NCBI RefSeq assembly: GCF_032197885.1
Contig: NZ_CP134159.1
Coordinates: 2,108,001 to 2,172,000 of the forward strand
Direction of reading: 5' to 3'
Source of the DNA: Levilactobacillus namurensis
GTDB lineage: Bacteria; Bacillota; Bacilli; Lactobacillales; Lactobacillaceae
Length of the DNA stretch: 64,000 bases
Part shown: positions 3,589 to 13,198 of the stretch, one piece after another
Position numbering within the stretch: the first letter of the stretch is position 1
How the letters are laid out: every line of letters begins with the position of its first letter
The notes under the pieces: model-generated
Databases searched by the model: none
The model's input: only the letters and a program-made list of their open reading frames with translations
Told to the model about the DNA's origin: nothing
Position numbers and translations under genes: made by a program

Positions 3589-3807
3589 TTAAAATCCCAA
3601 GGGTCCCGGAAAACCACCGCGCTGAATCGACTTTAATTCCCGCTGAAACTGGTCCACGTAGGCGCGCAACGAGGCCGCGTCAACTTCCAGGTTCCCCGCC
3701 TGGTGACTCGCCGTGACCCGACCATCCTCAATTAACCGCTGCAGACTAGCCGGCGTATGCTTCATCCCATTTTGCTGTAAAAACCGTAACGCTGCTTGCT
3801 GATCCAT
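3589..3807 (-). CDS. Small helix-turn-helix-like protein of unknown function
   Basis: 72 aa from the ATG at 3807, which has GGAGG 7 nt upstream. The frame stays open for 38 more codons, but those run into an intergenic repeat element and look non-coding. The protein (MDQQAALRFLQQNG..., LIEDGRVTASHQAG..., ASLRAYVDQFQ) has the layout of small excisionase/MerR-like DNA-binding domains: a helix, a turn, an RLIEDGRV-type recognition segment, and a final helix. No partner gene is adjacent. The role is unknown. Confidence 0.6.
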   Translation of the reverse strand: MDQQAALRFLQQNGMKHTPASLQRLIEDGRVTASHQAGNLEVDAASLRAYVDQFQRELKSIQRGGFPGPLGF

Positions 3808-3864
3808 CTGCCATCCTCCTCTGAAATTCAAAGCTCTGTTTAGCTGATACACTGATCGTACCAT

Positions 3865-4021
3865 CCGCCTTACCGGGCGTCCAGACAGGGCTGGAACGCC
3901 GTGGGCGCAACTTCGAGCCAAAGAGCGGTCTCGAAGGTTGACCTTATTCTAAGCTGGCTGAGAAACGCCAACTAAGAATAATTTCATGGCTGAGCCCTGT
4001 CTGGACGCCCTCACGGCTCAC
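3865..4021 (-). repeat. Structured intergenic repeat, class I, copy E1
   Basis: 157 bp. Read on the minus strand it begins GTGAGCCGTGAGGGCG and ends CGCCCGGTAAGGCGG. The closing helix is 18 bp and perfect (3875-3892 with 3993-4010). Inside are two hairpins, the second with CTTCGAG/CTCGAAG arms and the conserved GCTCTTTGG loop shared with copy E4. It is head-to-head with copy E2. Confidence 0.85.
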
Positions 4022-4063
4022 AATAGTGGCATACATTAGCTATCAATCAGGTGAAATACTAAC

Positions 4064-4220
4064 GTGAGGCCCCGGTAGCCGATAGGGCTCAGCCGGTGAC
4101 ATTGGCGTTGGCTGAGGGGGCTTCTCAGCCTAGGCCAAGGCCGAGTTTCAAGACTCACGGGTTGGGTGAGGCTTGAAATCGTGCCCACGGGCGTCACGGC
4201 CCTAGCGGCTGCCGGGGCCG
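4064..4220 (+). repeat. Structured intergenic repeat, class II, copy E2
   Basis: 157 bp beginning GTGAGGCCCCGG. The 22-nt arms 4068-4089 and 4198-4219 pair with only three imperfect positions. Inside are a hairpin centred on GGCTGAG...CTCAGCC and one with GTTTCAAG...CTTGAAAT arms, followed by the family motif CGTGCCCAC. It is 42 bp from E1 and points away from it. Closely related to copy E3. Confidence 0.85.
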
Positions 4221-4264
4221 GACTGACAACGCGGCTATTCATTTTCCCAAACAGGTAAAAATCA

Positions 4265-4310
4265 TACAAAAAATGTTACGACTCGCCCGAAGGCTAGCCG
4301 TAACATTTTT
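4265..4310 (-). terminator. Intrinsic terminator, originally that of gltX
   Basis: A 10-bp stem (4271-4280 with 4299-4308) encloses an inner GCC-CGAA-GGC hairpin and has A-runs on both sides, so it could work on both strands. On the minus strand it would directly follow gltX if the insertion element 4312-5774 were removed. Confidence 0.8.
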
Positions 4311-4311
4311 A

Positions 4312-5774
4312 GGTTCTACAATATCTGTTGTTGGTAATAGATTTTTATCTATTACTGATGACAGATTTTTTGTTTATCATTAGAATAAAAAAGCGGACAT
4401 CTCCCGTCCGTTAACTTGCTCCCACCACAGAATTAAGTCAAGAAAGGAAATGCCCTATGTCAAATGATACTACGAAAATGTTGTTAGGAATAGATGATGA
4501 ACACTTAATAATTGAGGAAGGACAAGTGGGTGATGATGGAGTGATTCGATTGGTGGGGTCCCTAAACTACACCCCCAAGGCATGCCGCAATTGTGGGATT
4601 ATCAATGATCACCAAATTATTGGCTATGGTTGGCGGAAGACCACCATTAGATTCGCAAAAACATTGGGCAGCACCGTTATCCTGTGTCTCAATCGGCGAA
4701 ACTTTCACTGTAAGGCTTGTCATACCAATTTCCTGGCGCAGACGAATGCGGTGCCGAAACACTGCACGATTTCAAATACGACCCGCAAACAATGCTTAGA
4801 AAAACTGACCGAACCGGTTTCGCTCAAACACATTGCCGATGAGTTATCCACTTCGGATTCATTCGTTGGTCGGCAGCTCTTGCGCGCTGAACGGGACTTT
4901 CAAACCAACTGGCACTATTTACCAAAAGTTCTCCTCATGGACGAAGTTAAAAGCACTAAGAGCGCCACCGACGCGATGAGCTTTGAATTTATGGATGCGG
5001 AAACCCACGAATTGATCGACCTGTTACCCTTTAGGACCATTTATCAGCTTCAAAAGTATTTCCAGCATTACGACCAGGCTGCGCGAGAAAATGTGAAAAT
5101 TATCGTCACCGATATGAACTATACCTATCCCAAATTGGTGGGGCAGATCTTTCCGAACGCCATCGTTGTCATCGATCCGTTCCACTTGGTTAACGCTTTA
5201 AATCGAGCTTTTAATAAGACGCGGGTGCGCCTCATGAAAACCCTGGCGACTTCCTCACGCGAGTATCACGCCCTAAAACGCTATTGGAAACTATTATTAA
5301 CGCCGGAAAATCACCTCAACTACGAAGCTTTCCGTAAGTGGACAAACTTCCCTTATCCAGCGACTGCCACTGATGTGGTTGATGCTTTATTGGACATTGA
5401 TCCCGAGCTCAAGCAAACTTACAACGTGATGAATCGGTTACGTGAAACCATCAAAAACCGTGATTGGCCCAACTATAATCAAGTATTCCATCACTTAGAG
5501 GGCTGCTCGGAAGAGATGTTGGCAACCCTCCAGACCCTAGCGACTCATCATGATGAAATTGGCAATACCTTTACTCACCATTACACCAACGGGCCCTTAG
5601 AAGGTTCAAACAACAAGATTAAAGTCATTAAACGCACTGGATTTGGTTACCGAAACTTCTTCAGATTCCGGCTAAGAGTGCTGTTCGCTTTTCGAGTTCA
5701 TACAAAAAGAGCTCTAATCACCAAGTGATTAGAACTCCAATATTTTGTTCACCAACAACAGTTGACGAAGAACC
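4312..5774 (+). mobile_element. ISL3-family insertion sequence, complete, 1463 bp
   Basis: The ends are imperfect inverted repeats that both start GGTTCT and share CTGTTGTTGGT. The element is flanked by a perfect 8-bp target duplication CATTTTTA (4304-4311 and 5775-5782), the size typical for the ISL3 family. It encodes one intact transposase. Duplication and intact frame suggest a recent insertion. The target is the edge of the gltX terminator. Confidence 0.95.
4457..5728 (+). CDS. ISL3-family transposase
   Basis: 423 aa, full length for the family. The N-terminus carries a zinc-ribbon-like pair (CRNCG at about 43-47, then CKAC) and a helix-turn-helix segment (SLKHIADELSTSDSFVG). The DDE catalytic acids are visible in LMDEVKS, IIVTDMNY and NGPLEGSNNKIK. 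The C-terminal signature is TGFGYRNFFRFRLRVL. GAAAGGAAA precedes the ATG by about 7 nt. No frameshift or stop, so the element is probably mobile. Confidence 0.96.
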   Translation: MSNDTTKMLLGIDDEHLIIEEGQVGDDGVIRLVGSLNYTPKACRNCGIINDHQIIGYGWRKTTIRFAKTLGSTVILCLNRRNFHCKACHTNFLAQTNAVPKHCTISNTTRKQCLEKLTEPVSLKHIADELSTSDSFVGRQLLRAERDFQTNWHYLPKVLLMDEVKSTKSATDAMSFEFMDAETHELIDLLPFRTIYQLQKYFQHYDQAARENVKIIVTDMNYTYPKLVGQIFPNAIVVIDPFHLVNALNRAFNKTRVRLMKTLATSSREYHALKRYWKLLLTPENHLNYEAFRKWTNFPYPATATDVVDALLDIDPELKQTYNVMNRLRETIKNRDWPNYNQVFHHLEGCSEEMLATLQTLATHHDEIGNTFTHHYTNGPLEGSNNKIKVIKRTGFGYRNFFRFRLRVLFAFRVHTKRALITK

Positions 5775-5792
5775 CATTTTTAGATTACTTCA

Positions 5793-7283
5793 TTAAGCAC
5801 CCAGTTGGTCCAAGGTTTCTTGGATGTGCTTCAAAGCCGTTTCCCGACCCACCAATTCGATGGATTCTGGTAATTCTGGCCCGTGCATTTCGTGGGTGAC
5901 GGCGATCCGAATCGGCATCCAAAGTTGCCGACCCTTGATACCCGTCTGTGCTTGAACCTTCTTGATCACGTGGAAGATTTCTACGGAGTCAAACAGGTCC
6001 AACTTGGCAACTTCTTCAGCGAAGGCCTTTAAGACCACTGGCGCCGTTTCGTTGCTGATTTCAGCCAACGCATCGCCCTCGACCTTTTCTGGTTCTTCAA
6101 AGAAGACCGAAGCCATGTCGTTGATTTGCGCCATGTAGCTCATTTGCCGCTTGTACAGGTTGATCAACTGACGCGCCCATTCGATTTCGGACGTGCTTGG
6201 GTTGGCTGGCAAATTACCGGCCTTGATCAACTGCTTCATGGCTAAGTCCGCGACCGTACTCTCGTCAGCGTCCTTGACGTAACGGTTGTTCAACCATTCC
6301 AGCTTATCCATATCGAAAGTGGCTGGCGACTTGCTCAAGCGCGTCTCGTCGTACATCTTGATGAATTGCTTACGCGTGAAGATCTCGTCTTCGCCGACCG
6401 GTGACCAGCCCAACAACAGAATGAAGTTGAACATGGCTTCTGGTAAGTAACCCAGATCCCGATATTGTTCGATAAATTGTAAGACAGATTCGTCCCGCTT
6501 GGACAACTTCTTACCCGTGTCCTTACTGATGATCAAGCTCATGTGGCCGAACTTAGGTGCTTCCCAACCAAAGGCTTGGTAGATCATCAATTGCTTAGGC
6601 GTGTTGGCTACGTGGTCATCGCCCCGGAAGACGTGACTGATTGCCATCTTGTGGTCATCAACCACCACGGCAAAGTTGTAGGTTGGCATCCCGTCACGCT
6701 TAGCGATGACGAAGTCCCCACCAATGGTATCGGAGTTGAAGGCCACGTGACCCTTAACCATGTCGTCCCATTCGAAGACTTCATTCTTAGGAACGCGGAA
6801 CCGGATAACCGGCTTCAAGCCCTTAGCCTTAGCGGCGTCGATAGCGGCTTGCCGTTCTTCATCGGACATGCCGGCATATTCGTATTCGTAATGTGGCATT
6901 TCGTTCCGGGCCTTTTGAGCTTCCCGGTCAGCTTGCAGTTCTTCTTCAGTCCGGTAAGATTCGTAAGCCTTACCTTCGTCCATCAGTTGTTGGATCAGGG
7001 GCGTGTAAATGTCACGCCGTTCGGATTGCCGGTAAGGACCGTAATCCCCACCAACATCGGGACCTTCGTCCCAATCCAGACCCAGCCACTTCAAGTTGTC
7101 CAACTGGCTCCGTTCACCGTCAGCGATGTTCCGCTTAGTATCCGTGTCTTCGATCCGAATAATAAACTTACCTTTGTTGTGGCGGGCAAACAGATAATTG
7201 AAAATTGCCGTCCGCGCGTTACCGATGTGCAGATGTCCAGTGGGGCTCGGAGCATAACGAACCCGAATCGCATTTTTAGCCAA
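5793..7283 (-). CDS. gltX: Glutamyl-tRNA synthetase
   Basis: 496 aa class I synthetase. HLHIG lies at residues 17-21 (after RYAPSPTG) and KLSKRDES near residue 260. In lactobacilli this enzyme usually also mischarges tRNA-Gln for the GatCAB amidotransferase; that is family knowledge, not seen here. The start codon is TTG (7281-7283), with AGAGG about 10 nt upstream. Its terminator has been moved 1.5 kb away by the ISL3-family insertion just after the stop codon. The 5' leader contains a CGCCGG/CCGGCG hairpin at about 7313-7340. Confidence 0.97.
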
Positions 7284-7443
7284 ATTGGTTGCGCCTCTTT
7301 CTCGTTTTTTTGGTTAGCGCCGGGTCTCTCCGGCGTCTAACGACATGTTTTAAGTGTACAATGCCTACCACTAAAAATAAAGGGGTAGACTGGGATTGTT
7401 CCGAACTCGCAACTCGTGCCCAATGAAATAGTGGTATTAATCC

Positions 7444-7603
7444 GGTCCCGCCAGCCGATTGGCAGGGCCGTGACGCCAGTGGGCACGACTTTGAGCTTCG
7501 CCAAGAGCGCGAATCTCAAAGCTCGGCCTTAGCCTAAGGCCAGCAAACCACTGGCCTAACGCTAATGTCACCGGCTGGGCCCTATCGGCTGACGGGACCT
7601 CAC
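7444..7603 (-). repeat. Structured intergenic repeat, class II, copy E3
   Basis: 160 bp; on the minus strand it begins GTGAGGTCCCGTCAGCCG and shares with E2 the runs CAGCCGATAGGG and GGTGACATTAGCGTT (E2: GGTGACATTGGCGTT). The closing arms, an internal GGCCAG/CTGGCC hairpin and the GCTTTGAG/CTCAAAG hairpin are all recognisable. Head-to-head with E4 across 41 bp. Confidence 0.85.
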
Positions 7604-7644
7604 GTTGGTGCACAATACTGCGTGACATAATTGATCATGCTAAC

Positions 7645-7801
7645 GTGAGCCGTGAGGGCGGCCAGCTAGGGCTCAGCAGTGAAATTTGACTTGGACGACG
7701 TTTTTCAGTCGGCCTAGTCAAAGGCCCAGCTTCGAGACCGCTCTTTGGCTCGAAGTGGTGCCCACTGCGTTCCAGCCCTAGCTGGCCGCCCGGTAAGGCG
7801 G
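7645..7801 (+). repeat. Structured intergenic repeat, class I, copy E4
   Basis: 157 bp, same length and same head and tail as E1. The 18-bp closing helix is perfect (7656-7673 with 7774-7791) although its sequence differs from that of E1. Hairpin 3 arms are CTTCGAG (7730-7736) and CTCGAAG (7749-7755). It ends 25 bp before the stop codon of the convergent PIN/TRAM gene. Confidence 0.88.
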
Positions 7802-7825
7802 GTGACCTTCACCAGTTCTGAGCCG

Positions 7826-8974
7826 TTAGTTCTTCCGGTTCTTCTTAGGTTTTTGATCTTCGATGCCCCGGTCGGAATGAACTGGTTTGGCAAAGATCAT
7901 TCGGCCCGCGTCGGTCTGAATGGCACTGGTGACCACCACGTCAAGTTGCTTGTTAATGAAGTACTTACCGTCTTCGACCACCACCATGGTACCGTCGTCG
8001 AGGTAAGCGACCCCCTGCTGCCGTTCCGTCCCGTTCTTAACCACCATCACGTGTAAGTTCTCCCCGGGAATGACCCGTGGCTTCAACGCGTTCGCTAACG
8101 AGTTGATGTTTAAGACCTGGACGTTTTGGAACTGGATGACCTTGTTCAAGTTGTAATCGTTGGTGACGATCACCCCACCGTTCTTCTTGGCCAGGGCAAT
8201 CAACTTACTGTCTACTTCGGGAATATCCTCAAAGTCGCCTTCGTACATCTCAATGGGCATCACGTGTTCATTTTGCAGCTTGTTCAAGATATCCAAGCCC
8301 CGTCGGCCCCGGACCCGCTTCACGGAATCACTAGAGTCCGCAATGTACTGTAATTCATACAGGACAAAATTGGGGACCAACAACGTTCCTTCCAAGAACC
8401 CCGTCTTCGCTAAATCATAGATACGACCATCGATTAAGATGTTTGTATCTAAAATCTTATAGTGGTGAAAATTCGGTTCAGGTTGCTTATCAATGACCTT
8501 CTCACTGGCTTCTTCGGCCGCCTTCTTGCTCCGTGACTGGAACAGCTTACGCCATTCTTCGCCCCGGATCTTGCTCAGACGCGTTCCCAACCGAAAGCCA
8601 AAGTACCCCAGCAGAATCATCAAGATCCACGGGATAATCGTACTGATCAGTAAAGATGGCACCCGGAACAGGAATTGCGAGATCAACAGCGCTAACGCCA
8701 GGCCCACAATCGTCAACAGACTCCCAAAGATAATCGTCATGGGGTCCTGCTTGTTCAGGTAGCCTTCCACCCGACTGATCAGCCGCAGGAAGCTCTTCGC
8801 AAAAATGGCCCCGAGAATGAGAAAAATAATAGCACCAAGCAAAATATTAACAATAACGTTATCAACGAGAAGACTCTTCACTCCAAAGAGGAGCCAAGTC
8901 CGTGGTAGGTAAGCTGCGCCTAGCACACCGCCAATGATTGCAAAGATCACTAATACGACTGTTCGTTTATGCAT
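7826..8974 (-). CDS. yacL: Membrane-anchored PIN/TRAM domain protein (YacL-like)
   Basis: 382 aa. Four hydrophobic segments fill roughly residues 5-130. A PIN nuclease domain follows, opening with KILDTNILIDGRIYDL and carrying further acids in SSDSVKRVRGRRG and TNDYNLNKV. The C-terminus is a TRAM RNA-binding domain (GENLHVMVVKNG...). The build suggests a membrane-tethered RNase; the substrate is not known to me. A strong GGAGGTGA lies 6 nt before the ATG. The order radA-yacL-gltX is common in Firmicutes. Confidence 0.9.
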   Translation of the reverse strand: MHKRTVVLVIFAIIGGVLGAAYLPRTWLLFGVKSLLVDNVIVNILLGAIIFLILGAIFAKSFLRLISRVEGYLNKQDPMTIIFGSLLTIVGLALALLISQFLFRVPSLLISTIIPWILMILLGYFGFRLGTRLSKIRGEEWRKLFQSRSKKAAEEASEKVIDKQPEPNFHHYKILDTNILIDGRIYDLAKTGFLEGTLLVPNFVLYELQYIADSSDSVKRVRGRRGLDILNKLQNEHVMPIEMYEGDFEDIPEVDSKLIALAKKNGGVIVTNDYNLNKVIQFQNVQVLNINSLANALKPRVIPGENLHVMVVKNGTERQQGVAYLDDGTMVVVEDGKYFINKQLDVVVTSAIQTDAGRMIFAKPVHSDRGIEDQKPKKNRKN

Positions 8975-9010
8975 GTTTCTTCACCTCCCTTCAAAGGGGA
9001 CTTGCACCCC

Positions 9011-10384
9011 CTAGACTCCTAAGGCCAACTTCAACGTTTGGCGTAAAGTCGACACACCGACCACGTCAATCCCCGTTGGTGGCGTCCATCCCTGTAAATT
9101 ATTCTTCGGCACAAAGATCCGCTGGAAGCCTAACTTCTTGGCTTCGGCGACCCGTTGTTCGATCCGGCTGACCCGCCGAATCTCACCGGTCAATCCCACT
9201 TCGCCCACGAAACAATCCGTTGGGGCGGTGGCCGTATCCCGGTAACTCGATGCGATACTAATGGCGATTGCCAAGTCGATGGCCGGCTCGTCCAGCTTAA
9301 CGCCCCCGGCCGCCTTCAAGAAGGCGTCTTGGTTCTGGAGCATCAGGTTAGCCCGTTTCTCCAGGACCGCCATCAACAGGGAGACCCGGTTGCGGTCCAA
9401 GCCACTCGCCGTGCGTTGGGCATTCCCAAAGACCGACGGCGTAATCAATGCTTGGACTTCGACCAAAATTGGCCGGGTCCCTTCCATCGAGACCACGATT
9501 GCCGAACCCGTCGCGTCCTTCAAGCGTTCCTCCAAGAAAATCTCCGAAGGATTGGCCACTTCGTAGAGGCCCCCCTCGCGCATCTCAAAGATGCCCAGCT
9601 CGTTGGTCGAGCCGAACCGGTTCTTGACCGCCCGCAGAATTCGGTAGGTGTGATGCATGTCCCCTTCGAAGTATAGGACCGTATCCACCATGTGTTCCAG
9701 AATCTTCGGACCAGCGATGGCACCGCCCTTAGTCACGTGACCCACCACAAAAATCGTGATGCCGTTGGTCTTGGCAATCTGCATCAATTCACCGGTGACC
9801 GCTCGGATCTGGGAGACCGACCCAATTGCCGACTCGATGCCGGGCGCCTGCATGGTCTGAACCGAATCAATCACCACGTAGTCCGGGTGCATCTCTTCAA
9901 TGTTAGCTCGGATACTGGCCATATCCGTCTCGGGATACAGGTAGAGGTTGTCGGCGTTGACCACCAACCGGTCCGCCCGCATCTTGATCTGGCTGGCACT
10001 TTCTTCTCCGGACACGTAGAGGACTTTTCCCCCGGTCGCACTCAGTTGACCGGAGACCTGCAGCAACAGCGTTGACTTTCCAATTCCGGGATCTCCCCCG
10101 ATAAGGATCAGGGAACCCGGAACGATGCCGCCCCCTAGTACCCGGTTAAGTTCCTCCATCTGAGTCTTGACCCGGGTCTCGGTCGTGTGTTTAACTTCGC
10201 GCATCAATTGTGGCCGTGAATGTTCGCCAGTCACCGTGACCCGCGTCGACTGGGGTTTCGCCACCGGCGTCACGACTTCTTCGACCATGGTATTCCACTC
10301 GCCACAGTTGGGACAACGCCCCAAATACCGGGGTGAGCTGTAATCACAATTCTGACAAACATATTTAGTCTTCGCTTTAGCCAC
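9011..10384 (-). CDS. radA: DNA repair protein RadA
   Basis: 457 aa. RadA is a RecA-like helicase that promotes branch migration in recombination. Seen: a four-Cys zinc finger at the start (CQNC at 10-13, CPNC at 24-27), Walker [11 protein letters not shown], the KNRFG motif, and a C-terminal Lon-like domain with [12 protein letters not shown] chose the GTG at 10384, because AGGGGG lies 6 nt upstream of it. The ATG two codons earlier would touch that ribosome binding site. Confidence 0.95.
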
Positions 10385-10477
10385 GTGCATCCCCCTAATC
10401 TCGTATTCTTTCTACTGTATATTCTAGCATACCCAGCGGGTCTTCCCCCACTAGTCCGTTACGGCATTTGCAAAGTC

Positions 10478-11020
10478 TTAACGTTCGTCGCTCGACCCAA
10501 AGCCTCCCTGCCGTTGGGCCTGAGGAACCTGTTCGGCATCGGCCAGTCGAAACGGCATGAAGATGCCCTGGGCAATCCGTTGACCCTTGCGAATCGTGAC
10601 GTCACTGAGGCCCACGTTGACCAGTTGAACGAAGATTTCCCCTTCGTTTTTATCATTATTATAGTAGTCGGCATCGATCACCCCGACCCCGTTCGGCAAG
10701 ATCAAGTTATGCTTCAGCGGATTACTGGACCGGTTCGCCAGCAGCAAGACCTCATCCGGTTGCATGTACGCCTTGATCCCCGTCGGTACCAGGTACGGCT
10801 TTAAGTCGTGTTGTCCCGCCGTGAGTTCCGCCGTCGTCAGGGGGTCCCGGTGCCGTAGCCGCTTAAAGGCGTGCAAGACGTCGTGCCGCCAAATGGAGGG
10901 TAACGTAAAATCCTCGGCACATTCAAAATCATAGCCGGCCGATTGTTGGGTCGTCCGGTAAGGTAGGTGGAGCCCCTGGTCAGCGTACTTACTGACTACT
11001 TCAAATCCTCGTTGCTTCAT
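10478..11020 (-). CDS. dut: dUTP diphosphatase
   Basis: 180 aa trimeric dUTPase that hydrolyses dUTP to dUMP and keeps uracil out of DNA. The conserved motifs are AGYDFECAED, NRSSNPLKHN, GVIDADYYNN, GQRIAQGIF and the C-terminal RQGGFGSS. An insert after motif 1 (WRHDVLHAFKRLRHRD) makes it longer than the classical 145-150 aa form, as in several lactobacilli. AGAGG is about 9 nt before the ATG. Transcribed towards radA across 93 bp. Confidence 0.93.
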   Translation of the reverse strand: MKQRGFEVVSKYADQGLHLPYRTTQQSAGYDFECAEDFTLPSIWRHDVLHAFKRLRHRDPLTTAELTAGQHDLKPYLVPTGIKAYMQPDEVLLLANRSSNPLKHNLILPNGVGVIDADYYNNDKNEGEIFVQLVNVGLSDVTIRKGQRIAQGIFMPFRLADAEQVPQAQRQGGFGSSDER

Positions 11021-11124
11021 CTTATTCTTCCTCTCTATCCACTGATTGAGAATCGACTCTCTTAACTAGGATAAGCATCCCGCCACCAGATTACCAGTAA
11101 AAGCTTTCCATCCGTGAAAAGCAG

Positions 11125-11153
11125 TTGACAAGCCGCCGGTGATAGACCAAAAT
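11125..11153 (+). promoter_or_regulatory. Promoter of the acetyltransferase-like gene
   Basis: TTGACA (11125-11130) and CAAAAT (11148-11153) are 17 bp apart; the gene starts at 11190. Confidence 0.55.
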
Positions 11154-11189
11154 CAAGGGGAGTCCTTAGACAAGAAGGGAGCCCTTACC

Positions 11190-11522
11190 ATGGCATTACG
11201 GGAAGAACCTGGTCGCCTCACGATTCTAGACGACAACCGGTTAATGGCTAGTCTGCACTACCTGACCCTTTCGGCGGACAGCTGGGTCCTCGAACAGATC
11301 TTTGTCCGTCCCAACCAGCCCGTCAGCCTAGCTGTGGAGCTGATTAAACGTTTTACCCAGCTCGTCACAGCTGCTCAGGTCACCATCAAGTTACTGGACC
11401 CATACGCCAAACGTTACTTTGCGGCGCATCCCGCGCCAACGTTGGTGGCCGCCCACCAGCTTCCCGTCCAGGGAGCTACTGCGGTCCGGCCAGTCGCCCT
11501 TACAGCGCACCCCACGGAATAG
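11190..11522 (+). CDS. Small GNAT-like N-acetyltransferase (YjdJ type)
   Basis: 110 aa from the ATG at 11190 (MALREEPGRLTIL), which has AGGGAG 8 nt upstream. The protein shows the compact GNAT layout: a beta strand with RLMASLHYLTL, a central strand (SWVLEQIFVRP), a long helix, and the late motif LLDPYAKRYFAAHPAP typical of YjdJ-type single-domain proteins. The acyl acceptor is unknown. It stands alone. Confidence 0.7.
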   Translation: MALREEPGRLTILDDNRLMASLHYLTLSADSWVLEQIFVRPNQPVSLAVELIKRFTQLVTAAQVTIKLLDPYAKRYFAAHPAPTLVAAHQLPVQGATAVRPVALTAHPTE

Positions 11523-11722
11523 GCGTCACGGGGAGCGCCATCGTCCCCAGACATTCTAGGCTAAAAAAACTAGAAAGAAGGCACGGCTGCTACTGAAGTT
11601 TCCCTAGCCCCCGTCCAGAATGTCTCCTTAACCATCACTCATCAGACCCGCGGCTAGGCGGGCGCGGTCCGACCGTCATCAACGGCCACCGTCACTTAGT
11701 TATCAGTAGCAGTCACGCATCC
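11523..11722 (+). promoter_or_regulatory. Structured leader upstream of rpiA, pseudoknot-like
   Basis: This 200-bp gap contains two interleaved complementary pairs: 11549-11557 with 11617-11625 (9 bp, AGACATTCT/AGAATGTCT), and 11587-11596 with 11703-11712 (10 bp, CTGCTACTGA/TCAGTAGCAG). The order A-B-A'-B' is a pseudoknot topology. The last arm ends 10 nt before the rpiA ATG, and no clear Shine-Dalgarno sequence is present there. A short alternative stem (TTCTAG/CTAGAA) competes with the first pair. Confidence 0.4.
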
Positions 11723-12409
11723 ATGGATCAAAACGCATTAAAGGCCCTCGTTGGCCAAGAAGCCGTTAAGTACGTCGAAGACGGCATGATTTTAGGCATC
11801 GGCACCGGCTCAACCGTTCGGTACATGATCGACGCCCTGGGGGAACGGGTCGCTAAGGAAGGCCTCCACATCGTTGGGGTGGCCACTTCCGACCGGTCCG
11901 CTAAGCAAGCCGAATCGCTGGGCATCACCATCAAGCAGCTCGACCAAGTGGACCACATTGACCTCACAATCGATGGCGCCGATGAAATCGACGACAACTT
12001 CCAAGGCATCAAGGGTGGCGGGGCCGCCCACCTCTGGGAAAAGATTGTGGCCATCAACTCCACCAAGAACATGTGGATCGTAGACGAAAGCAAGTTGGTC
12101 CACCACTTGGGCAAGTTCCCGTTACCCCTGGAAGTCATTCCGTTCGGCTCCACGCACGTCTTGGAAAAATTAGACGGGATGGGCTTACACCCTGAATTCC
12201 GGATGACCGAAGACGGTCACCACGTACTGACCGATTCGAAGAACTACATTATCGATCTGCACCTGGGACGCATTGACCACCCCCACGAACTGGCCAACAC
12301 CTTGAACGGTATCGTGGGCGTCGTGGAACACGGCCTCTTCTTAGACCTGGTCAACACCGTTATCGTGGGTCGTCAGGACGGTCCCGAAGTCTTAAACGCT
12401 CGCGACTAA
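11723..12409 (+). CDS. rpiA: Ribose-5-phosphate isomerase A
   Basis: 228 aa enzyme interconverting ribose 5-phosphate and ribulose 5-phosphate in the pentose phosphate pathway. Seen: the phosphate loop [10 protein letters not shown], the catalytic IDGADEID, and the [11 protein letters not shown] loop. The ATG at 11723 has no convincing ribosome binding site; the preceding bases are part of a possible long-range stem. It is a single-gene unit with its own terminator. Confidence 0.95.
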
Positions 12410-12468
12410 ACTTCTTATCATCAGGTCACCCGCGTTTATCAATTTGTTAATCATAACGTCACTATCTC

Positions 12469-12498
12469 GAGCCTGGGCCAACCGCCTAGGCTCTTTTT
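12469..12498 (+). terminator. Terminator of rpiA
   Basis: GAGCCT and AGGCTC arms with an inner GG/CC pair, followed by TTTTT. Confidence 0.85.
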
Positions 12499-12556
12499 GG
12501 GCATCCACGACTATCTGGCGGTGTCGCACATACGTTTAGTTAAAGTATAGATTGTG

Positions 12557-12602
12557 CGCCTTACCGGTTGGCTCTGAAGAGGCTGGCCGTCCGGTAAGGC
12601 GG
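12557..12602. repeat. Remnant of the structured repeat family (E6)
   Basis: An 11-bp perfect inverted repeat, CGCCTTACCGG (12557-12567) and CCGGTAAGGCG (12591-12601). These are two class I tails facing each other with almost no core between them, so this looks like a collapsed or deleted copy. Confidence 0.6.
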
Positions 12603-12643
12603 ATGACAGAGAGAATGTTCAATCTTCAACGTCACATTAATTC

Positions 12644-12676
12644 AAAAAAAGACCTCACCCCAAACGGGATAAGGTC
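12644..12676 (-). terminator. Terminator of the candidate small RNA
   Basis: 11-bp stem with a GTTT loop and a U7 tract; no coding gene on this strand ends here. Confidence 0.8.
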
Positions 12677-12848
12677 GCAGTGGCGGCTTGCATGAATAAG
12701 ACCGTCAAATGTCTTTTAGCCATGGTGAAAGCCAACCAATTGTATGATTACTCATACCACGGACTCAAGGTCCAATAAGGCTTGCACCTTATAAAGTGAA
12801 TTCTAGCAGTCTCACGTTGCTATTTCCAATTAGAATCACCGAGAGATA
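12644..12848 (-). ncRNA. Candidate small RNA with its own terminator, unidentified
   Basis: No gene lies here. Read on the minus strand the stretch ends in a strong hairpin (GACCTTATCCC-GTTT-GGGGTGAGGTC, 12651-12676) followed by seven T. Upstream it can fold further: GGTGCAAGCC with GGCTTTCACC, an inner GGAC-CTTGA-GTCC hairpin, a GTATGA-GTAA-TCATAC hairpin, and AAGAC/GTCTT near the end. At about 200 nt the size would suit 6S RNA, but I cannot match it to a known family. The 5' end is a guess. Its promoter is not clear. Confidence 0.5.
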
Positions 12849-12867
12849 CTATTTTGTGTGCGCTCAA

Positions 12868-13029
12868 TTTAGCCGTGAGGGCGGCCCTGAAGGGGCTCAG
12901 TGGTGTCGTTTGGGTTATTCGGGGTTCTTTCCCGGATTACCCAAAGGCCGAGCTTGAAGACCTGGCACTTTCAGGGCTTCAAGTCGTGCCCACCACGTTC
13001 CAGCCCCTTCAGGACCAACCGGTAAGGCG
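12868..13029 (+). repeat. Structured intergenic repeat, class I, copy E5
   Basis: 162 bp. The head GCCGTGAGGGCGGCC and tail ACCGGTAAGGCG match E1 and E4. The closing helix (GGCCCTGAAGGGGCT with AGCCCCTTCAGGACC) and hairpin 3 (CTTGAAG 12953-12959 with CTTCAAG 12977-12983) have different sequences from E1 and E4 yet still pair. This copy is single, not in a head-to-head pair. Confidence 0.82.
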
Positions 13030-13067
13030 AATACTTCCACAATCTGCCCTTGACTAAACATAGGAAA

Positions 13068-13105
13068 GGAGTTTGGGACAAAACGCCCAAACTCCTGTTA
13101 TTTTT
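13068..13105 (+). terminator. Terminator-like hairpin
   Basis: GGAGTTTGGG and CCCAAACTCC (10 bp perfect) around ACAAAACG, then TGTTATTTTT. It follows repeat E5; no gene upstream on this strand ends nearby. Confidence 0.55.
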
Positions 13106-13134
13106 GATGATAACACTACGGTGCTGAAACATGC

Positions 13135-13172
13135 GACCCAAGGCAGCTAGCTCCGCTTAACCGCCTTGGGTC
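13135..13172. repeat. Inverted repeat downstream of the membrane protein gene
   Basis: GACCCAAGGC (13135-13144) and GCCTTGGGTC (13163-13172) are perfect complements. No T-run follows on either strand, so a terminator role is uncertain. Confidence 0.5.
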
Positions 13173-13198
13173 CCACTCTCAATCTTAGTCTATTTGGC

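Follow-up and report, generated by a model that had tools for sequence, protein, structure and literature searches.

REP sequences and BIMEs, which go with RAYT transposases, are palindromic intergenic repeats arranged in couples, and GOLLD, ROOL and HEARO are large RNAs with an ornate conserved structure. Covariation between paired positions is the standard proof of RNA function. Among small interspersed repeats that fold tightly are RUP and the modular BOX of Streptococcus pneumoniae, for which PMC3049150 describes terminal inverted repeats that pair in the fold, enrichment between convergent genes, slow present-day insertion and a proposed IS partner. The MITEs described in the same source are AT-rich. 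Prokaryotic MITEs as characterized in PMC10969869 are short and non-coding, carry terminal inverted repeats, occur in many copies and include internally deleted forms.

The repeat family of Levilactobacillus namurensis described here works like BOX/RUP and other MITE-type repeats, as these are presented in PMC3049150 and PMC10969869, and shares the properties listed above for both, apart from the proposed IS partner and the AT-richness. Compared with BOX/RUP, by description only, it has other hosts, with copies in 11 genera of one bacterial family; it consists of two outward-facing three-way-junction arms, shows inversion in place, and no IS partner was found for it. Unlike the MITEs of PMC10969869 it is GC-rich (arm GC is mostly 0.55-0.65), has a conserved fold that is far more elaborate, and no related IS was identified. 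We do not file it as a MITE, since no target-site duplication could be detected and no partner is known.

The window, a stretch of 64,000 nucleotides of the chromosome of this organism (genome label G000), contains five copies, for which an earlier note made from the sequence had given a length of about 157-162 bp. All five were recovered where that note had placed them. Coordinates, strands and fold assignments, with scores from the covariance model (CM) and reference to the sister genome G024, are as follows.

3865..4021, minus strand: E1 arm, subtype A, left arm of couple 1 (fold; CM match 173.6 bits)
3866..3875, minus strand: element end motif of couple 1 (CGGTAAGGCG read on the minus strand)
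4022..4063: 42-bp centre between the heads of the couple 1 arms
4064..4220, plus strand: E2 arm, subtype B, right arm of couple 1 (fold; CM match 84 bits)
7444..7603, minus strand: E3 arm, subtype B, left arm of couple 2 (fold; CM match 74.6 bits)
7604..7644: 41-bp centre of couple 2, which forms its own hairpin (CTCACGTT...AACGTGAG)
7645..7801, plus strand: E4 arm, subtype A, right arm of couple 2 (fold; CM match 187 bits)
7791..7800, plus strand: element end motif of couple 2
12557..12601: stub with both element ends (CGCCTTACCGG...CCGGTAAGGCG) and no interior; G024 has the same stub
12649..13064, plus strand: about 416 bp including E5, absent at the orthologous G024 site (insertion here or deletion there)
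12868..13029, plus strand: E5 arm, related long-centre type, single (fold; CM match 135.6 bits)
13020..13029, plus strand: element end motif at E5

The earlier note was silent on strand. E2, E4 and E5 read on the plus strand and E1 and E3 on the minus strand, and E1-E4 pair up divergently as couple 1 (3865-4220) and couple 2 (7444-7801), whose heads are separated by 42 and 41 bp, respectively, and each of which has one recognisable end. E1 and E4, with E5 as a relative, belong to subtype A, and E2 and E3 to subtype B. The GTGAG head that had been ascribed to all copies is not found in E5, which has TTTAG. Each copy forms the proposed three-way junction, in which an internal loop separates a long closing stem from a short one and two hairpins follow; folded from its single copy, E1 differs slightly from the common arm fold in its lower part. 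Against dinucleotide shuffles the window stretches gave z values of -9.3 (couple 1), -10.4 (couple 2) and -5.8 (E5), and shuffles folding as well numbered 0/100, 0/100 and 0/200, respectively. Adjoining the E5 region, at 13065-13180, lies another repeated block, in which TTCTTGACGATAACGATACGGTGCTGAAACGTGCGACC... follows a terminator-like hairpin; this block also adjoins elements at loci L120, L130, L134, L164 and L167.

A covariance-model search of this genome and of other Lactobacillaceae, which the earlier note had proposed, uncovered a large family. With model R1, built from 27 A-type arms, we identified at least 133 arms in G000 (best 150 of 1211 candidates scored); sequence searches of the genome gave at least 44 matches to E4 and at least 36 to E2. 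The arms group into 84 loci, of which 36 hold a single arm. Neighbouring arms form 49 pairs, 48 of them divergent and one tandem, with centres of 38-63 bp or 96-303 bp. The A arm has the order [P1]-CA-[P2]-AAA-[P3 hairpin][P4 hairpin with an unpaired A]-[P2']-GTTCC-[P1'], in which the closing stem has 18 pairs and P3 and P4 abut directly; B arms have a different second joint. At 58 of the 84 loci no ORF of at least 80 aa overlaps the element by more than 80 nt, and the overlapping ORFs at the other 26 (up to 402 nt) are assumed to be spurious. Genes beside the elements read in all directions. Based on a crude ORF picker, which at three loci chose a neighbour overlapping the element by 21-56 nt, the neighbouring genes are convergent at 29/84 loci, compared with 31/231 other gaps.

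The arms belong to larger units with defined ends. The tail 11-mer CCGGTAAGGCG occurs 130 times in the genome and its backward control 3 times. Allowing one mismatch, 107 of the 133 arms have the end motif at their tail, no arm has it at its head and 26 lack it on both sides, so that arms with a recognisable end face outward without exception. Outside the motif, conservation fades after about 14 bases (97 ends). The unit plan is thus one of terminal inverted repeats around CGCCTTACCGG...CCGGTAAGGCG enclosing two arms that point outward from the centre. Both ends are recognisable within 250-800 bp at 29 of 83 loci tested; ten of these units, with a short centre, measure 393-409 bp, and those with a long centre mostly 416-646 bp. 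At L164 the ends form a 24-bp stem, 23/24 identical as an inverted repeat, that closes the whole 400-bp unit (z -14.4). The earlier note had named a match to a transposon end as an outcome that would speak against its interpretation, and this is partly the case, as many units carry terminal inverted repeats. Derivatives include an end-only stub and forms that have lost a hairpin. Among the 29 two-ended units, flanks shared no word above shuffled pairings as a target-site duplication would; old insertions could have lost it.

Among 100 of the 130 end-motif places, we surveyed for autonomous copies and found neither such a copy nor a partner gene in one 2-kb segment between ends and at nine places around solitary end motifs. 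The 2.0-kb segment between a left and a right end motif (C1:334458-336466; L389 2459-4466) encodes an MFS transporter of 413 aa (PF07690), with no second forward ORF of at least 80 aa beside it. This gene is possibly cargo, or it may be an insertion into an element.

The family extends through much of the Lactobacillaceae. Blast searches were positive in 33 of 58 genomes, comprising 33/35 within the genus and 0/23 from other families of the order. The covariance model identified arms in at least 34 of 151 genomes of the family, belonging to 11 of 40 genera (best 19 candidates per genome scored), and six genomes scored more deeply contain 13 to 136 arms each. Across 299 Bacilli genomes a match was found only in this genome, with the best 10 candidates of each and strict filters by which weak matches can be lost. 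A junction-pattern search of named genomes gave at least 120 stretches; the 80 listed come from Levilactobacillus, Lapidilactobacillus, Companilactobacillus, Lactiplantibacillus, Schleiferilactobacillus, Lacticaseibacillus, Loigolactobacillus and Lactobacillus MAGs. Plasmids and phages had no match to couple 2 by blastn, and viral contigs none to the exact junction pattern.

The gap between the PIN gene and gltX is a site found both with and without a unit among relatives. It spans 545 and 537 bp where it holds a couple (G000 and G024, respectively); in 26 of 30 genomes (30 of the 35) it is 153-303 bp long, gave no model match and is too short for a couple. In two of the other genomes, the gaps of 532 and 713 bp (L384 and L388) hold relatives of the repeat, recognized by eye in the former and as a weak match in the latter, so the occupied gltX site is not unique to the sister pair. 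The flanks have diverged and the exact junction is not recoverable. Since the gap is occupied in some genomes and short in others, units have been gained at, or lost from, gltX-type sites within the genus, and slowly so.

Comparison with the sister species is based on 19 stretches of G024. We tried 31 of the 84 loci, and 27 of the 31 were placed by their flanks. The arm is still present in G024 at 24 of these 27 comparable sites, which argues for movement that is slow or has come to a halt. The interior of couple 1, which was placed separately, is gone in G024, and at other sites one genome or the other lacks parts of arms. At the 21 loci where the arm is more than 85% identical, orientation relative to the flanks is unchanged in 12 and inverted in 9. 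In a strict set, where no other compared G024 arm matches better than the ortholog, 10 are colinear and 6 inverted (L115, L119, L135, L158, L160 and L164; L160 narrowly, with 0.91 vs 0.90), and the inversion at L164 was confirmed by base-by-base alignment. Both orientations at one site were seen between the two species only.

Taken together, we favour with moderate confidence the reading that the repeat is mobile DNA of Lactobacillaceae, a MITE-like element that is non-autonomous and in which the folded arms act as DNA, and put its probability at roughly 0.5. The folded strand, as extruded or single-stranded DNA, would be what an enzyme recognises. This enzyme, supplied in trans, would have inserted the units and perhaps also flips them at their terminal repeats, with template switching helping to keep the stems perfect. 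The copy number, the outward ends, the end stem of L164, the gltX gap, the flips, the derivatives, the excess of convergent gaps and the occurrence in other genera argue for such an element. Points against it are the lack of a target duplication, of an autonomous copy and of a partner, the retention of most sites in the sister species, the GC-rich arms, the relatives at L384 and L388, and an excess of G-U over A-C in other genomes, which would fit RNA too. A more tentative and somewhat doubtful extension is that the repeats represent a new class of mobile element, in which the folded three-way-junction DNA strand is the substrate of recombination and the two outward arms are read by a widely shared putative enzyme that inserts units without target duplication and flips them at their terminal repeats.

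The flips have two competing readings, an enzyme acting at the terminal repeats and template switching in replication. According to the second, the repeats would be passive palindromes, i.e., once-mobile or duplicated inverted repeats that are kept perfect and flipped by template switching with no dedicated enzyme or function. Template switching is reported to homogenise the arms of inverted repeats and to invert their spacer (PMC8604942) and has been proposed as a source of compensatory changes (PMC8794818). Inversion in place and hairpin-sized deletions are what it would leave. At L118 and L138 five P3 pairs changed together relative to G024 while the rest of the arm is similar; these two loci, which may be conversions or replacements between copies, contribute 11 of the 13 double Watson-Crick changes between orthologs, and the other orthologs have mostly one-sided changes. 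Such block changes, the rarity of G-U and the in-place inversions are marks of DNA-level template switching or recombination.

The base-pair changes themselves bear on the same question. Across the 27 A-type arms of G000, pairing is kept in 98.3% of 1512 pair cells, and double changes occur at 25 of 56 pairs; sliding the partners by 1-3 columns lowers the paired share to 31-47%. The structure was derived from one of the aligned sequences, which favours it. Arms from other genomes of the genus and family (66, of which 65 are distinct, from 44 of 67 loci) are paired in 95.7% of 3379 cells, against 37-45% in the slid control, with double changes in 54 of 56 pairs; fitting to the model biases this alignment in its favour, and its cells count sequences rather than events. 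When A and B arms were aligned jointly the outer stem came out wrongly aligned, and pairs were not counted from that alignment. The compensatory changes seen in five copies by the earlier note are therefore borne out, and covariation remains very strong in larger alignments. In 97 A/E5-type rows from this genome (79 of 84 stretches used, the rest overlapping or duplicate; one arm counted twice and four missing) there are 177 G-U and 48 A-C cells. A single loop-closing column pair accounts for 84 of the G-U cells, and few or no G-U or A-C intermediates occur at many covarying columns, as expected of passive palindromes. The earlier note had concluded that selection acts on the structure and that plain DNA duplication does not account for it. 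Conservation of the structure stands: of 33 ortholog pairs, the 22 that are best matches differ between the sister species at 39/2420 stem positions (1.6%) and at 52/1020 unpaired ones (5.1%). The selection claim as worded was too strong for a repeat family with rare G-U pairs, block exchange of hairpins and in-place inversions, and double changes alone do not prove selection since template switching also yields them.

Three observations weigh against passive palindromes and make them rather unlikely. The 18-pair closing stem of A arms is near the 24-bp ends of L164 in length, yet none of the 107 arms with an end has turned individually; whole units turn. The junction and the unpaired motifs persist across 11 genera. 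Finally, stems change less than the flanks of the ortholog pairs, which differ at 1678/44399 positions (3.8%).

We consider it unlikely that the arms would act in transcripts as structured RNA, either as small RNAs or as mRNA ends, a view that the sequence comparisons nevertheless favour in several respects: the covariation, the unpaired motifs conserved on one strand and the slower change in stems. A purely double-strand origin is expected to give equal numbers of G-U and A-C, and RNA a larger share of G-U; the observed counts fall between these two expectations. Among the 55 best of the 66 arms from other genomes, G-U outnumbers A-C by 84 to 16, yet G-U makes up only 2.9% of 2918 cells. Consensus scans detected no promoter- or terminator-like site at couple 1 (3800-4320) or couple 2 (7380-7850), the neighbouring genes have no fixed direction, and the units flip. 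The ornate structure is like that of GOLLD, ROOL and HEARO, but the comparison with Rfam suggested by the earlier note gave no match at gathering score in Rfam 15 and only implausible weak ones at a relaxed threshold. On balance the folded-DNA mobile element remains the reading we prefer, with RNA as a less probable acting form.

A role as chromosome-organising sites kept away from the terminus is very unlikely. In G000 only 1 of 84 loci, where 25 are expected, lies in the 29% of the chromosome opposite dnaA (C1 0.93-1.72 Mb), but in G003 the equivalent region holds 44 of 136 arms, with 40 expected, and we rejected terminus avoidance as a general rule. It is scarcely credible that these are REP/BIME-type repeats moved by a Y1 (RAYT) transposase: they are likewise high-copy intergenic palindromes in couples, but the arms are far larger, 157-nt junctions rather than short hairpins, and Y1_Tnp (PF01797) had 0 matches in G000 and in the arm-bearing G005, G016, G071, G076 and G077, so RAYT mobilisation was rejected for this genome.

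At least 100 arms are present in several genomes of well-studied food bacteria, with no Rfam match and no published account found in full-text literature searches. The family offers a natural test bed for how far covariation can arise from DNA-level template switching or recombination. Should an enzyme indeed read the fold, it would constitute a new structure-guided recombination system, and one found in organisms that are harmless.

The mobiliser candidates considered were Y1 transposases and an ISL3-family insertion sequence of the window, located at 4313-5774 between couple 1 and gltX (transposase 4457-5728, PF01610). The latter is missing at the orthologous G024 site, where the two flank alignments share 9 bp, the overlap expected from a target duplication. 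Elsewhere in the genome, L112 and L113 are identical couples 6.7 kb apart, with an identical 2.4 kb stretch to their left and right flanks that diverge soon after the compared stretch. Given the identity of the whole left stretch and the differing right flank, they look like a segmental duplication rather than two insertions.
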